NCBI GenBank assembly: GCA_947501885.1
Contig: CANMXN010000001.1
Location: 744,001 to 808,000 of the forward strand
Source: an uncultured Sphingorhabdus sp.
GTDB lineage: Bacteria > Pseudomonadota > Alphaproteobacteria > Sphingomonadales > Sphingomonadaceae
Length of the DNA stretch: 64,000 nt
Reading direction: 5' to 3'
A program made the position numbers and the translations under genes. Below the pieces are notes generated by a model, which was not told the origin of the DNA, searched no databases, and saw only the letters and a program-made list of their open reading frames with translations. How positions within the stretch are numbered: position 1 is the stretch's first letter; each line of letters opens with the position of its first letter. Positions 37,163 through 45,189 of the stretch are shown one piece after another.

Positions 37163-37831
37163 TTACAGTAATCTCTCTAACCCATCCCAATCAGATGTCA
37201 TTATTTCCTTTTGACGCGGATCGATCAGTCCTAATTGCTCTAATGTCCAATTCTCTTTCCCACAATTACAAGGCGCACAGCTTGGCGCAAGATTTACGAT
37301 ATCATTATTCCCACCTCTGGAGTGCGGGATAATATGGTCAAATTCATTATCCATCGCCATGAAAGCAACATGCTTTTCATCATTCGTTCTGCCCCAACGC
37401 AATGCTTCGGGATAGGCTTGTAATAATTGGCGACGCGCAGTCCTATTAATCAACCCAATACCGCAATAGGCGCAGTGCCAACCAAATTTCTTGATAAGCC
37501 TCTCAGCAATTTGTTTTGAAGGTTGCCTTGATCTAACTCTTTTATCCTTGGGCAGACTAGGTTGAAGATTAAAAACATCTCTAATCCGCAAATAATGAAC
37601 TTTCTCAGGATATTTAACTTTATTCCCCCATAGAGATTCAACCCAATCTCTTATAATCGGAATATCTGCCGCTTTTATCGCTATAACAGCCTTTTTACCA
37701 TCGCCAGCCAAATGCGCATCTGCTGCTTCCCCCAGCAAATGCTGTGCTTCATATATCTCAGCTATTGGCTCTCTTAGGCAGGGCCTTAATGCTAAATATT
37801 CTTCGGAATTGGGTGAAGGATATTCATTCAT
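37163..37831 (-). CDS. HNH endonuclease
   Basis: About 222 residues from the ATG at 37829-37831. A short helical N-terminal region is followed by an HNH fold: CAYCG (first Cys pair), EFDHIIPHSRGGNNDIVNLAPSCAPCN with the DH...H/N catalytic core and second Cys pair. Zinc-binding HNH domains occur in restriction enzymes, homing nucleases and phage proteins; there is no methyltransferase or other partner nearby. The gene lies between two 177-bp direct repeats and among REP-like palindromes, like a small mobile or passenger unit. The GC-poor flanks differ from the neighbouring core genes. Confidence 0.85.
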   Translation of the reverse strand: MNEYPSPNSEEYLALRPCLREPIAEIYEAQHLLGEAADAHLAGDGKKAVIAIKAADIPIIRDWVESLWGNKVKYPEKVHYLRIRDVFNLQPSLPKDKRVRSRQPSKQIAERLIKKFGWHCAYCGIGLINRTARRQLLQAYPEALRWGRTNDEKHVAFMAMDNEFDHIIPHSRGGNNDIVNLAPSCAPCNCGKENWTLEQLGLIDPRQKEIMTSDWDGLERLL

Positions 37832-37890
37832 AACTCTCTCTTTCACTTCTCACTTACTTCGCAATAGTTCGTTCTCACATAGCCAACGCC

Positions 37891-38450: not shown

Positions 38451-38777
38451 TTAGACCATCGGCAGATAAGGCTTCATTTTAGTTTCAAGCAACTCGACAA
38501 GCCTTGGGTCCATAAACTTGTATCTATCAGGAATATCGAGGCAGATAATTCGTTTTGATCTAAGCGATGTTTGATATTTTCTTTGTATTTTTTGGCGATG
38601 TGTCTTTTCCATTACAAATATGATGTCGGACCATTCAATCAATTCTCTGCTGAGCGGGTTTTCAGCATCATTATTTGTGCCTGCGGAATCAACCTCTATA
38701 TTATTTCGGGCCGAGAATATCTGCTCTGCGGTCGGGCTTCTCCACTTATTTTGGCTACAGACGAAAAGGATATTCAC
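38451..38777 (-). CDS. Low-molecular-weight phosphatase-like protein (COG4551 type)
   Basis: 108 residues, starting at a GTG. The N-terminal phosphatase loop CSQNKWRS (C7, R13) fits C-x5-R, and a DP in FMDPRLV near residue 89 takes the place of the general acid loop. Small stand-alone proteins of this type are predicted protein tyrosine phosphatases; no substrate is known. It starts 3 bases after the glmU stop, so translation is probably coupled to glmU. Confidence 0.75.
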   Translation of the reverse strand: MNILFVCSQNKWRSPTAEQIFSARNNIEVDSAGTNNDAENPLSRELIEWSDIIFVMEKTHRQKIQRKYQTSLRSKRIICLDIPDRYKFMDPRLVELLETKMKPYLPMV

Positions 38778-40257: not shown

Positions 40258-40968
40258 ATGGCAGAAATAAATTTCGATATTATCGGTTTTGATCTTGATG
40301 GGACATTGCTCGATACTAGCGGCGAATTAACCGCATCGACAAACCATGCACTTGATGCTGCTGGCTTGCCACCATTATCGCGCGATGAAGTCATTTCTAT
40401 GATCGGACTTGGTGCGAAAAATATGCTCGATATGGGGTTAAAGAAAGCATCCCCTGGTTTGAGCGATGCTGAAAATAAAGCACGCTTGAAACAATATTTA
40501 CCCATTTTGATGACCCATTATGAAGAAAATTTGGGTAGTGACTCCCCGCCCTTTGATGGCCTGTTAAAATTTATGGATCAATGCGATGCAGATGGTACCA
40601 TAATGGCCGTTGTTACCAATAAATATGAAGGCTTTGCGCATAAATTACTGCATAATGTCGGACTATTTGATCGTTTTTCCTGTGTGATTGGCAGCGATTC
40701 TCTGGGGCGCGGCAAAGATGGCCGTTATATTGCCAAACCGATGCGCGAGCCGATAGATGAAATGATAAATCGCAGCGGCGGCAAGATTGGCGAAACCCGC
40801 GCTATTTTCATCGGCGATGCTATCTATGATGTGATGGCAGCGCATAATGCGCAAATACCCGCCATCGCCGTGAGTTTTGGATTTTTGCACCAACCTGTTG
40901 AAACATTGGGCGCAGATCATATCATCGATCATTATGATGAACTTTGGCCGCTTCTTAAAACATTATGA
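40258..40968 (+). CDS. gph: HAD family phosphoglycolate phosphatase-like
   Basis: 236 residues. HAD motif I is DLDGTLLDT (residues 11-19), motif II VVTNKYEG, and motif III/IV GRYIAKPMREPI and FIGDAIYDVMAAHNAQIPAIAVSFGF. Phosphoglycolate phosphatase is the usual call in this position and architecture but HAD substrate calls are weak. An AAGGACGG site precedes the ATG. It is convergent with the nucleotidyltransferase gene. Confidence 0.82.
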   Translation: MAEINFDIIGFDLDGTLLDTSGELTASTNHALDAAGLPPLSRDEVISMIGLGAKNMLDMGLKKASPGLSDAENKARLKQYLPILMTHYEENLGSDSPPFDGLLKFMDQCDADGTIMAVVTNKYEGFAHKLLHNVGLFDRFSCVIGSDSLGRGKDGRYIAKPMREPIDEMINRSGGKIGETRAIFIGDAIYDVMAAHNAQIPAIAVSFGFLHQPVETLGADHIIDHYDELWPLLKTL

Positions 40969-40970
40969 AT

Positions 40971-42011
40971 TTAAGTAATTGGTTTATGGCCTTTGCGCCA
41001 TTTGGTAAATAAATGCTTTGTCAACATAAGCGGCGGCATACGCAACCAATGTGAGCGAATGTAAAATCCAAACCTTAGGAACTTGCGTGTTTGTTGACCC
41101 CAACTATTGCGCGCTAATAATCTCTTTTGTATTAATTCGTCAGAAAATTTCCAAAGCATCCACTCGCTCGGAATATTAGTGCCATATAGCGCATTGGCAT
41201 GGCGAGCAGACAAATGTACGGCTTCCCATAGTTCATGCTGTTCAGCACGGTTTTTTAGCCGCGCCCAAAAATCACCTGCTGCGCCAGAAAAGTCACTGAG
41301 CAGACAATGCATATCCCATAAATTACGCAGGCCGCCAGCCAAATCACCATCGGCCATCATATGTGCCGCACAATGACAGATCATATCTTCAGGCATAAAA
41401 ATATAATGCCCGTCTTCAAGTGGAATAGCGTCTGCAATCATCGCCAAAGCATTAGGATTAGGCCTAGCAGTTTTGGGAAGGATCGTATGATGTACATCTA
41501 TCATCTGATCGCGGTCTTTATGGATTAGTGGCGGTAATTCATGCATATGGTCACGGTAATAAGCGTCATCATAATCATCTTCTTTGACCCATTCCCAATC
41601 CGCAGCCAACAGCAGTTCTTCAACCTGCTTTAGCCCACCTTCACTAACCATAATATCCAAATCACCAATATGCCGCCCGTTTGATGCTTCCATGCCCGTA
41701 GCTGCGTAAGCGCTACCTTTCATTAGTACCACCGGTCCGTCATAATTTTGCAAAGCACGGCGCGTACTATCCACTTCCCATAATGAACAACGACGCTGAT
41801 ATTCAGCATCAACTAATGCATCGCGGACAAAATTCTCAATATGCTTGGCATTGCTTTTACCTTGCAATCTATACGCCAAAGTACCTGCTAAGACTTCTGC
41901 TCTCGCCATAGTAATAAGTGCGGTCCAGTCACCATCATTCAAGCGAAGCGCACGTTCTGGTTCGCGCAAACAATCAACAAGCAGCATGGCATCTTTATGA
42001 TAGCTGCTCAT
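40971..42011 (-). CDS. Nucleotidyltransferase family protein (PF14907 type)
   Basis: 346 residues. A nucleotidyltransferase signature is visible: VVLMKGSAYA near 94-103 and GRHIGDLDIMV with the metal-binding D117 and D119. The rest is helical with several His and acidic residues. This family is found with HprK-like kinases and PqqD-like chaperones in several peptide-modification loci, including lasso peptide clusters. Here its start overlaps the HprK-related kinase stop by 4 bases, so the two proteins are probably made in fixed ratio. Activity on a peptide is inferred from neighbours. Confidence 0.85.
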   Translation of the reverse strand: MSSYHKDAMLLVDCLREPERALRLNDGDWTALITMARAEVLAGTLAYRLQGKSNAKHIENFVRDALVDAEYQRRCSLWEVDSTRRALQNYDGPVVLMKGSAYAATGMEASNGRHIGDLDIMVSEGGLKQVEELLLAADWEWVKEDDYDDAYYRDHMHELPPLIHKDRDQMIDVHHTILPKTARPNPNALAMIADAIPLEDGHYIFMPEDMICHCAAHMMADGDLAGGLRNLWDMHCLLSDFSGAAGDFWARLKNRAEQHELWEAVHLSARHANALYGTNIPSEWMLWKFSDELIQKRLLARNSWGQQTRKFLRFGFYIRSHWLRMPPLMLTKHLFTKWRKGHKPIT

Positions 42012-42859
42012 ATTTTACTCCACAATTCATTGACCATAGAAATAGCATCTTCACTATTTTGGTAATCAATGGCGTATACTGGCGTTTCATCAATAAAACG
42101 CGTTAATGTATTGAATCCTACCTCTCCCATAGTAACATAATTTGTTGATGCTTGGGTAAGGCGCATGAAAGCCTCACTGGGTAAAACCTCACGTACTTCA
42201 GTATCATGACCAAAACGTGGAAATAAAAGCATGGCAGGCCGAGCGGATTTTTCCATATTCCTAATAGCATCAATAGGTGGCACCATATGGCGTATATCAC
42301 CTTTTGGGGTTGCCTCTATCAAAGGGCCTAAAACAGCGTTAGGCACTTGTTTTTCCATAGCTGCTATCGCTTGATTTTTTAGACTAATCATACGTGGATA
42401 AGGTACAGCCTCTCCATTATCATGATCAATAAGGGCAAATTCATCACCCATAAACCGCCAACCATTATAGCCTAGTAACGCCGATAATGTAGATTTCCCA
42501 GAACCAGATTCGCCTGTCATGATCAAGGCTTTACCATCTTTTTCAGCACTGCTCGCATGTAATATTAAATGCCTGCGCCAACCCAGTGCCATTTGCAAAT
42601 TAAGTCCCATCTCAGCTGCTAAAAAGGCCTGTTCAAGCGGCAGGGGCAGTGCATCGGGCAGCATATAATCACCCTTAATTTGAACGGATGGTCTTATATA
42701 TCGCCGCCAAGGCTTTGTCGCCTCCATACGGACGGTAAAATCGCTTAATGATGGTTTGGGGTAAGCCGCATATAATTCATCAATAAGCGCAATTGGCTCT
42801 TTCCAATCAGAACCGATACGAAATGATGCAGGACCAACCTTGAGTGTGGTTTCAAACAT
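42008..42859 (-). CDS. HprK-related kinase A
   Basis: 283 residues. The Walker A loop GESGSGKST is at 116-124, with the HPr kinase-like downstream acidic pair in FMGDEFALID (D139, E140). It is similar to the C-terminal catalytic part of HPr kinase but no phosphotransferase HPr is encoded nearby. The TIGRFAM class name HprK-related kinase A fits. Its likely substrate is a Ser/Thr of a small protein; the Tat-signal protein in the same operon is the candidate. It is 33 bases downstream of the PqqD-like gene. Confidence 0.88.
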   Translation of the reverse strand: MFETTLKVGPASFRIGSDWKEPIALIDELYAAYPKPSLSDFTVRMEATKPWRRYIRPSVQIKGDYMLPDALPLPLEQAFLAAEMGLNLQMALGWRRHLILHASSAEKDGKALIMTGESGSGKSTLSALLGYNGWRFMGDEFALIDHDNGEAVPYPRMISLKNQAIAAMEKQVPNAVLGPLIEATPKGDIRHMVPPIDAIRNMEKSARPAMLLFPRFGHDTEVREVLPSEAFMRLTQASTNYVTMGEVGFNTLTRFIDETPVYAIDYQNSEDAISMVNELWSKI

Positions 42860-42892
42860 AAACCTTCACTTCCAAGCTGAATGATAAATATA

Positions 42893-43210
42893 TCATGTCA
42901 GCTTCACTTTTTGTTCTTCATCGCATTTATCAATAATGCCTAAGTCGATAAATTCATCGAGGCGCGCAGTGATAATGTCTGCAAAACTATCATCGCTATC
43001 TTCAAAGACTTTTAGATCATATTGTTTCTGCAATTCGCGCTCAATTTGCTCAACGCTAAGGGCTTGCGAACCCAATGTTTCAATGATTTGCGGAGCAGGT
43101 TCAGCTACAATATGCGTTATACCTGATAATCTATCATATAATAAAGTCATATAATCAAGCGGATGAAGCCTGACATTATTATTATCTTTAATATAATAGA
43201 TAGTCCCCAT
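42893..43210 (-). CDS. HPr-rel-A system PqqD family peptide chaperone
   Basis: 105 residues, the size of PqqD-like recognition domains. The N-terminus is polar; LDYMTLLYDRLSGITHIVAEPAPQIIETLGSQALSVEQIERELQKQYDLK is the PqqD-like wing with the conserved hydrophobic and acidic spacing. In RiPP pathways this fold (RRE) binds the leader of a substrate peptide. Here no classical leader is encoded; the substrate may be the neighbouring Tat-signal protein. It is the second gene of the cluster, 52 bases after the first. Confidence 0.85.
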   Translation of the reverse strand: MGTIYYIKDNNNVRLHPLDYMTLLYDRLSGITHIVAEPAPQIIETLGSQALSVEQIERELQKQYDLKVFEDSDDSFADIITARLDEFIDLGIIDKCDEEQKVKLT

Positions 43211-43262
43211 AAATATGTCTAATAGGAATATTTACAGGGAATAATCAAGGGTTTCTATACAA

Positions 43263-43694
43263 TTAATAACGTCGAGTTTGGATAGATGCAAAGCATGTGA
43301 AACCGCTTTGTCCAGAGCGTAAGCGCTTAATATATTTAACATAAGCACGTGTTTCTTGATAAGTGGTTCCTGGTAGCGTCCGTCCACGCACTGCGTGTCT
43401 CAGATCTTCACCTCTAAACCTACGCCCATAAGGGTTAAATGAACCAGGCGTATTGCGCGGTACTAAGCTTCCATCTGGTGCTACATTTTGGCCTGCACCA
43501 TGAGGACCTGGAATTGGGACAGTACAAGTCAATACTGATGATGAAGTCTGCGCCATTGCGGGACGTACACTGACCGCAGTAGTTGCGGCAACAGCACCCA
43601 TCATCAACATACGCCGGCGATTAGGTTCTGCCCCTGCCTTCATATTATTTTCAATGGAGTCTTGGCTCTCATCAATATTTTTATCTTCGCTCAT
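43263..43694 (-). CDS. Tat-signal small protein, candidate substrate of the kinase cluster
   Basis: 143 residues. An acidic N-terminus is followed by a twin-arginine motif NRRRMLMMGAVAATT (RRR at 26-28), a hydrophobic core, and a likely cleavage AMA|Q after residue 48, so it would be exported folded. The mature part is ~95 residues, polar and Gly/Pro-rich (PIPGPHGAGQ, TPGSFNPYG, RGRTLPGTTYQE) with two Cys (C57, C134) and ends FASIQTRRY. I recognise no enzyme domain. It is the first gene of the cluster, so it is made in the greatest amount. A secretable substrate or carrier is the inference. Confidence 0.75.
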   Translation of the reverse strand: MSEDKNIDESQDSIENNMKAGAEPNRRRMLMMGAVAATTAVSVRPAMAQTSSSVLTCTVPIPGPHGAGQNVAPDGSLVPRNTPGSFNPYGRRFRGEDLRHAVRGRTLPGTTYQETRAYVKYIKRLRSGQSGFTCFASIQTRRY

Positions 43695-43905
43695 ATAATT
43701 CCCAATCTTTACTCACTAGATACTCGATACAAATCACATATACATAATTTAGCGCAATGCCATGTAAAATATACTCACATCGAGAAAAAAGGTCGAAAAA
43801 TATGATTGATATGGGATCATTAGAAAAAAACGTCTATTAACGGGACGAAAAATATAGCAATTATTGACCGAATCGATCAAATCTTATGAAGCCCATTCTC
43901 ACAAT

Positions 43906-45189
43906 ATGACGATATTTGCCTCACGTCGTTTTATTATAACTTTGATATTGGCTATTGCTGGAGCACTTCTGGCCGCCCAAATTGCTGGATATTGGAGCAG
44001 AGTATTGGCTATTTTAATGGTCAGTATGATCGCAATAGTCATAATTTCAGATGAAGGGGTAAACTCTTCTCGCAAACACCGCGATGGTTATAATAAAGAC
44101 TTACTCAATCCCATCAATGATCATCCGGAATTTCAATTACTTATCAACAGTATAAGAAGTCCGTTATTAATTATTTCTAAAAATCGCGTGCTTGCAGCAA
44201 ACCTATCTGCATTACAATTGCTTGGCTCCCCTTTAGTAGGGCAAAATATTGCTGGGGCATTTCGCCATTCTGTCATCATTGAGAAATTGACAAAGTTTGA
44301 ACATCATGATGATGAGAATATCTCTATTTCCGGCCTTGGCCAGCGCGAACAACGTTGGGATATGCATGTCATACAGCTGAATAACCAATATCGTATTGTG
44401 CAGCTTCTTGATAAATCAATCAACCATGCTGCCGAAAAAATGCGTGTCGATTTTGTTGCGAATGCCAGCCATGAACTATTGACTCCGCTCGCTTCTATCA
44501 AGGGATTTATTGAAACTTTAAATGATGATAGTGCTGGAGGTGATAGCAAAACACGGCATAAATTTCTTTCTATAATTGGTGATGAAGCACAGCGAATGGA
44601 ATTGCTCATTCGTGACCTTATGTCTCTATCACGCATAGAATCGGGAACTTTTGCTGACATCGCCAAAGAGGTATCATTTATTGAAATTGTTAATCAAGCG
44701 ATCAACGGCCTTGTCAAAGGGTCTAATAAGCGCGGTAAAGATATTGTTTTAAATGCCAAAACGGATTTACCGCGCGTCGCTGGGGATGAAGGGCAATTGC
44801 GGCAAATGGTGATCAATATTGTCGCCAATAGTATGAAATATGCCAAAACTGATACGCCTATTGAAGTGACAATAGATAAGATCAAATCTGGTTCTATGGT
44901 ACGATTTTGCGTAAGAGATTATGGAAATGGCATTGCTTCAGAGCATATTCCAAGATTAACCGAGCGTTTTTACAGAGTCGATTCTGGGCGCAGTAAAGCA
45001 CTTGGCGGCACGGGACTTGGACTATCATTGGTTAAACATATCGTACAGCGCCACAGAGGCCATATGGATATCAGCAGTACAATTAACGATGGTACGAAGA
45101 TTACAATCCTCTTACCCGTTGCAGCAGCAGATCATGATAATATTAGGCACATAATTAGACCGCGCCGTACGATCGAAGAAGATACATAA
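43906..45189 (+). CDS. phoR: Phosphate regulon sensor histidine kinase PhoR
   Basis: About 427 residues from the ATG at 43906; a TTG at 43864 is 14 codons earlier and neither has a good ribosome site. Two N-terminal membrane helices (RRFIITLILAIAGALLA, VLAILMVSMIAIVII), a PAS-like region, then the dimerisation helix with phospho-His (ANASHELLTPLASIKGF, His 203 counting from the TTG) and the ATPase domain (N box NIVANSMKYA, DYGNGIASEHIPRL, GTGLGLSLVKHI). It phosphorylates PhoB when phosphate is low. It is separated from phoB by the pst genes and phoU, as in several alphaproteobacteria. The H-box reads SHELLTPL, with Leu where Arg or Lys is usual. Confidence 0.9.
   Translation: MTIFASRRFIITLILAIAGALLAAQIAGYWSRVLAILMVSMIAIVIISDEGVNSSRKHRDGYNKDLLNPINDHPEFQLLINSIRSPLLIISKNRVLAANLSALQLLGSPLVGQNIAGAFRHSVIIEKLTKFEHHDDENISISGLGQREQRWDMHVIQLNNQYRIVQLLDKSINHAAEKMRVDFVANASHELLTPLASIKGFIETLNDDSAGGDSKTRHKFLSIIGDEAQRMELLIRDLMSLSRIESGTFADIAKEVSFIEIVNQAINGLVKGSNKRGKDIVLNAKTDLPRVAGDEGQLRQMVINIVANSMKYAKTDTPIEVTIDKIKSGSMVRFCVRDYGNGIASEHIPRLTERFYRVDSGRSKALGGTGLGLSLVKHIVQRHRGHMDISSTINDGTKITILLPVAAADHDNIRHIIRPRRTIEEDT

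Follow-up and report, generated by a model that had tools for sequence, protein, structure and literature searches.

The window, i.e. the whole 64,000-nucleotide stretch of DNA analysed in this work, carries at positions 40971-43694 four minus-strand open reading frames (ORFs), which encode, in this order, a small exported protein, a PqqD-like protein, a kinase and a nucleotidyltransferase. The ORFs confirmed the original prediction of four co-directional genes, with intergenic spacings of 52 and 33 bases followed by a 4-base overlap. The features considered below are as follows:

43263..43694, minus strand: small exported protein, proposed substrate, 143 aa; no family match, conserved, co-occurs with the kinase
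43551..43694, minus strand: acidic N-terminus and twin-arginine signal block of the small protein (RR at residues 26-28, A46-M-A48-Q49), from the sequence
43266..43550, minus strand: predicted mature part, residues 49-143, with invariant C57 and C134 (alignment A2, AlphaFold2 model)
43281..43298, minus strand: C-terminal block T133-C134-F135-A136-S137-I138 of the small protein (alignment A2)
42893..43210, minus strand: PqqD-like peptide-binding protein, 105 aa (TIGR04353)
42008..42859, minus strand: HprK-related kinase A, 283 aa, with H101, Walker-A K122, D139 and E140 (TIGR04352)
40971..42011, minus strand: nucleotidyltransferase, 346 aa, with K98-G99, D117, D119 and D172 (PF14907)
40258..40968, plus strand: flanking HAD phosphatase (gph-like; HAD matches), a marker of the site outside the system
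43864..45189, plus strand: flanking PhoR-like sensor kinase (profile matches), a marker of the opposite side, also outside the system

The identities predicted for the kinase, the PqqD-like protein and the PF14907 protein were all upheld by scores above the curated cut-offs. The kinase scored 248.1 bits with TIGR04352 (HprK_rel_A, cut-off 200) and the PqqD-like protein 50.0 bits with TIGR04353 (cut-off 35), which places both in the "HPr-rel-A system" of NCBIfam, as it is worded in the description of TIGR04353 (PqqD-family chaperone). The nucleotidyltransferase scored 156.5 bits with PF14907 (gathering cut-off 31.2). What sets the window system apart from the NCBIfam one is its small protein, which no model covers; the model descriptions shown mention no substrate. 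In the open-licence part of PubMed Central we found no paper on the HPr-rel-A system, TIGR04352, TIGR04353 or PF14907, nor one treating HprK together with an exosortase. None of the four cassette proteins matched the PADLOC anti-phage models at E 0.01.

The kinase residues His101, Walker-A Lys122, Asp139 and Glu140 were 100% conserved among 121 sequences and invariant in alignment A3 (n=25), and in a comparison of this stretch with solved HprK they lined up with its His, Lys and Asp-Asp. In the nucleotidyltransferase, Lys98-Gly99, Asp117, Asp119 and Asp172 were 100% conserved (n=113 sequences). Nothing points to decay of the enzymes, whose catalytic residues are intact.

Anatomy and conservation of the small protein

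The small protein had no match in NCBIfam or Pfam, and no matching structure was found for it in the PDB. A database search with its sequence yielded 178 proteins, the first of which was the window's own. Among the 120 listed, none carried a Pfam domain and the names were hypothetical or uncharacterised, one beginning with "Twi", probably for twin-arginine. The relatives are under purifying selection, with dN/dS values of 0.02-0.21 in 11 of 12 pairs and a saturated dS in the other pair.

Conservation was concentrated in two blocks, the signal block and the C-terminus, with a variable middle. The signal block consists of RR, a small hydrophobic core and then A-x-A, and this RR-hydrophobic-AxA pattern was present in the window protein, in 119 of the 120 listed database proteins and in four sets of hits that overlap in part (78/81, 22/24, 17/18 and 79/80). 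G33, P45, A46, A48 and Q49 were invariant in the 53-sequence alignment, among them residues next to the signal cleavage site. The small protein had been predicted to carry a Tat signal. The pattern agrees with this; the curated Tat-signal models PF10518 and TIGR01409, however, did not report the window protein, and a relative (L071) reached only 13.3 bits with such a model (cut-off 16.7). The Tat label rests on the RR-hydrophobic-AxA pattern. We consider export via Tat quite likely.

Conservation of the modified residue had been named as something that would support the original prediction, and the alignment of the small proteins revealed a nearly invariant C-terminal Ser/Thr-Cys-x-x-Ser block common to the relatives. 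T133, C134, A136 and S137, as well as C57, were invariant in alignment A2 (53 sequences). The pattern [ST]-C-x-x-S-[hydrophobic] was found in 78/81 hits of the first set, 23/24 of the second and 79/79 named loci (the sets overlap in part), as well as in 119 of the 120 listed database proteins, the remaining one stopping directly after the Ser. The misses in the first set were one half of a split gene (L054), a protein in which the block lies farther from the C-terminal end (L079) and one that reads SCIHSA (L086). The split gene belongs to genome G344 (L054, L167), where the small gene is divided into two overlapping frames beside three intact enzyme genes, either by a frameshift or by a sequencing error.

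Within the host family, conservation extends over about 95 mature residues, with a mean column identity of 69%. In the AlphaFold2 model, the 10-residue blocks covering residues 51-140 had mean pLDDT values of 66-92 and the last block had 51. A C57-C134 disulphide formed after export is plausible. The C-terminus ends in FTCFASIQTRRY, in which no PEP-CTERM tail was seen by eye and none was matched in NCBIfam.

Distribution and genomic setting of the four genes

A TIGR04352 search of 396 genomes of the order placed 155 above the cut-off, and 80 fetched loci together with the window (81 loci) were searched with iterative profiles. The nucleotidyltransferase and the kinase were hit in all 81, PqqD in 80 and the small protein in 78, always on one strand within a locus. 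The four genes were thus found together within the order, as predicted, and 77 of the 81 loci had exactly the window's order. One locus (L074) carries an additional small gene, located between PqqD and the kinase. Three cassettes (L073, L103 and L106) are without a small gene at the locus; L103 and L106 are from genus g6, whose small gene lies elsewhere in the genome, and L073 (G053), which is also without PqqD, is a real exception. This locus (L073:5870-7925) is an orphan pair of a TIGR04352 kinase and a nucleotidyltransferase of the same family, and its neighbour resembles a TonB receptor by eye.

A profile built from 41 mature host-family sequences of the small protein and run on the same 396 genomes was positive in 98 of them. 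All but G002 are host-family genomes (97); elsewhere the small protein has diverged too far to be picked up by this profile. Within the host family (313 genomes), the small protein was detected in 97 of 99 kinase-positive and in none of 214 kinase-negative genomes. Had it been absent or unrelated beside the enzymes, this would have spoken against the original prediction; in the host family it accompanied them in 97/99. The Fisher p of 7e-80 for this table (97/2/0/214) is valid only for independent genomes, and these are not independent because they share ancestry. The two misses were G053 (L073) and G286, whose locus L110 carries a diverged small protein. A scan of named genomes gave a similar picture for the best 80 of 586 confirmed loci: the three enzymes were present in 80/80 and the small gene in the flanks of 79/80, the exception being Sphingomonas sp. 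AX6 (L236), with the small gene 3.7 kb upstream (longer locus L034). These 80 loci are from Sphingomonadales, except for records whose label reads only Alphaproteobacteria, uncultured bacterium or Bacillus sp. 2B10. Sphingomonas and Sphingobium are among the carrier genera with isolates.

The usual place of the cassette within the order is between gph and phoR, for which relatives were present in the fetched stretch of 56/81 and 51/81 loci, respectively. At six empty sites, five from kinase-negative genomes of the window's genus and one from a kinase-negative genome of g24, gph lies next to phoR and all four genes are missing; the aligned parts of gph and phoR are 93 to 330 bases apart. Four further kinase-negatives told less, with gph aligning only partly in L253 and not seen beside phoR in L254, L256 and L257. 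In 15 of 18 kinase-positives of genus g6, apparently Sphingopyxis, the small gene lies at a distance from the kinase, or else on a separate contig (G295 being placed from its locus alone). At the 12 unlinked small-gene loci fetched from g6, phoR adjoins the small gene and PqqD, kinase and nucleotidyltransferase are absent, and at two g6 kinase loci the three enzyme genes lie beside gph-glmU. As both separated loci are present, the operon was broken and its two halves were retained, probably in a single event inherited by the genus.

In a sample of 398 genomes from the phylum, 61 were above the TIGR04352 cut-off, with no positive in the other orders of the window's class. From the other classes, 40 of 48 positive loci were fetched, some on contigs that end early. 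Profile hits were obtained for the kinase in 40 and for the small protein in 24; the nucleotidyltransferase and PqqD were each hit in 32, one of the PqqD hits being on the opposite strand. In 24 of the 40 loci (23 found by a pattern script and L116 recognised separately) there is an upstream protein with a twin-arginine signal and a C-terminal [ST]-C-x-x-S-[hydrophobic] block. In six others (L113, L114, L130, L141, L142 and L145) it is replaced by a different upstream RR-signal protein with an [ST]-[PH]-G-aromatic motif, and none of the three such proteins tested was above a Pfam cut-off. The RR-signal proteins of L131 and L143 show neither motif, and in the remaining eight no clear candidate small protein was recognised. 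Eleven loci (L116, L123, L124, L125, L133-L135, L137, L147-L149) have a gene of 555-754 aa directly after the kinase, whose product by eye combines TPR and sulfotransferase-like parts; that of L149, the only one tested, had no NCBIfam match at E 1e-20.

We also compared the neighbourhoods of 61 loci from other families and classes, including two host-family loci (L070 and L073), assigning each gene cluster through its one scanned representative. As in XrtA/PEP-CTERM exopolysaccharide loci, members of TIGR03108 (amidotransferases; 23/61 loci), TIGR03088 (17/61), TIGR03087 (14/61), TIGR03019 and TIGR03006 (6/61 each) were found near part of the cassettes outside the host family; unlike PEP-CTERM proteins, the window's small protein is without the sorting tail. 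All five downstream asparagine-synthetase homologues tested fitted TIGR03108 (846-1018 bits, cut-off 816.9) in comparison to 238-287 bits with the lasso cyclase model (cut-off 525). The upstream homologue of L086 (first representative) was just below the TIGR03108 cut-off, with 794 bits, and scored 272.5 with the cyclase model. The co-occurrence of XrtA with the cassette is partial and not strict: in the window's genome XrtA is on a separate contig, and the cassette is present also in genomes without a TIGR03109 match. In L079 and L080 (genus g70), XrtA-type FemAB and deacetylase genes adjoin the cassette and no TIGR03109 match was obtained at E 1e-55, so the exosortase may be diverged or missing in these genomes.

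The small protein as a candidate substrate

The four genes almost certainly form one functional unit. Because related genomes retain or lose the four as a set, the small protein is probably the target modified by the three enzymes. Building on the gene content, the conservation, the joint presence and absence and the anatomy described above, we propose the following course of modification. The small protein would be made with its N-terminal twin-arginine signal block, and the PqqD-like protein would bind this N-terminus as a leader. HprK-related kinase A would then phosphorylate the C-terminal block at a hydroxyl residue, most probably Ser137 of T-C-F-A-S-I, with T133 as an alternative site, and the PF14907 enzyme would attach a nucleotide or a sugar to the Ser phosphate. 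Modification likely precedes export, as the kinase requires ATP and no signal is visible in it by eye. Tat exports folded proteins, and thus a bulky modified protein could leave; the whole modified protein would do so and act in the envelope, probably in connection with exopolysaccharide. XrtA-type genes lie close to many of the cassettes beyond the host family, which points to such exopolysaccharide or envelope work. We hold this overall model, i.e. one unit in which the small protein is modified by three enzymes and exported by Tat, with moderate confidence. The original interpretation, in which a folded or Tat-exported protein and not a cut peptide is modified, is partly supported. S137 is our best guess for the modified site, at somewhat less than even chances, and given the six loci without a C-x-x-S block it is not the rule for every cassette. 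Counting against the model are the kinase locus L073, with neither PqqD nor small protein, the split small gene of G344 beside intact enzymes, the incomplete sets of profile hits in the 40 loci from other classes, the shared ancestry behind the genome counts and the failure of the curated Tat models to reach the window protein.

The B1 protein of lasso peptide pathways is PqqD-like. The proposed leader binding, Ser phosphorylation and capping are drawn by analogy with paeninodin (PadeK, ThcoK) and pseudomycoidin (PsmK, PsmN), where, according to PMC9266682, an HPrK-like kinase and a nucleotidyltransferase homologue likewise act on a gene-encoded precursor. The same paper describes that the precursors share a conserved C-terminal Ser, that HPrK-like kinases phosphorylate this Ser and that PsmN puts hexoses onto the phosphate. 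The window system differs from these in its roughly 95 mature residues and twin-arginine signal, and in the position of Ser137 of 143, the seventh residue from the C-terminus, whereas the lasso Ser is the last residue of a short precursor. The lasso kinases are described in this paper (PMC9266682) with a His-Lys-Asp-Asp motif, whereas the window kinase has an invariant Glu140, which may therefore mark HPr-rel-A kinases.

Alternatively, the small protein could be a co-inherited partner, such as an exported sensor or effector, with the enzymes modifying another protein, e.g. an exopolysaccharide enzyme. The exopolysaccharide genes beside many of the cassettes beyond the host family would fit this, and so would the unlinked small gene in g6, the kinase locus L073 without a small protein and the 16/40 loci outside the class without a small-protein profile hit. 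However, PqqD-type proteins bind peptides, and within the order it is the small protein that recurs in the cassette as the short protein with a conserved leader and tail; its retention without linkage suits a substrate at least equally well. We therefore consider a mere partner role possible but unlikely.

It is less probable still that the C-terminal part is cleaved off after export as a modified, lasso-like peptide. The enzyme types are indeed those of lasso tailoring as described in PMC9266682, and the N-terminus is leader-like and the C-terminus conserved. On the other hand, the cyclase had been predicted to be missing, and the nine flanking window genes scanned indeed contained neither an asparagine-synthetase-like cyclase nor a leader protease (B2). 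The related downstream homologues at other loci are exopolysaccharide amidotransferases (5/5 tested), fitting TIGR03108 far above the lasso cyclase model, and some 95 conserved mature residues are unlike a short core.

Carbon-catabolite control, with the kinase acting on HPr like classical HprK, is very improbable, as the weak HprK similarity, including the His and Walker A, amounts to only 13.9 bits with TIGR00679 (cut-off 240) and the cassette is without a phosphotransferase gene. For a chance neighbourhood nothing speaks beyond the small protein having no family name, and the 97/2/0/214 table and the joint absence at six empty sites contradict it, leaving it a negligible probability.

Returning to the small protein as the substrate, this reading would supply a candidate target, with a candidate residue, for an enzyme set that is annotated in many genomes and for which we found no described target. 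If true, lasso-type tailoring enzymes would act on whole exported proteins too, and the system may be a protein component of XrtA-type exopolysaccharide biology. In a more speculative and rather doubtful extension, the cassette might represent a widespread bacterial pathway in which a RiPP-like enzyme set serves protein instead of peptide modification, the signal peptide doubles as the recognition leader and a phosphate-linked nucleotide or sugar on the Cys-x-x-Ser block makes the protein an exported primer, anchor or carrier for XrtA-type exopolysaccharide.

The window holds two further minus-strand genes near glmU. One, at 38451-38777 and directly downstream of glmU, encodes a low-molecular-weight protein phosphatase-like protein of only 108 aa, in which the PF01451 match covers residues 3-47. 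The other, at 37163-37846 and close to glmU, is an HNH endonuclease-like gene (PF01844).
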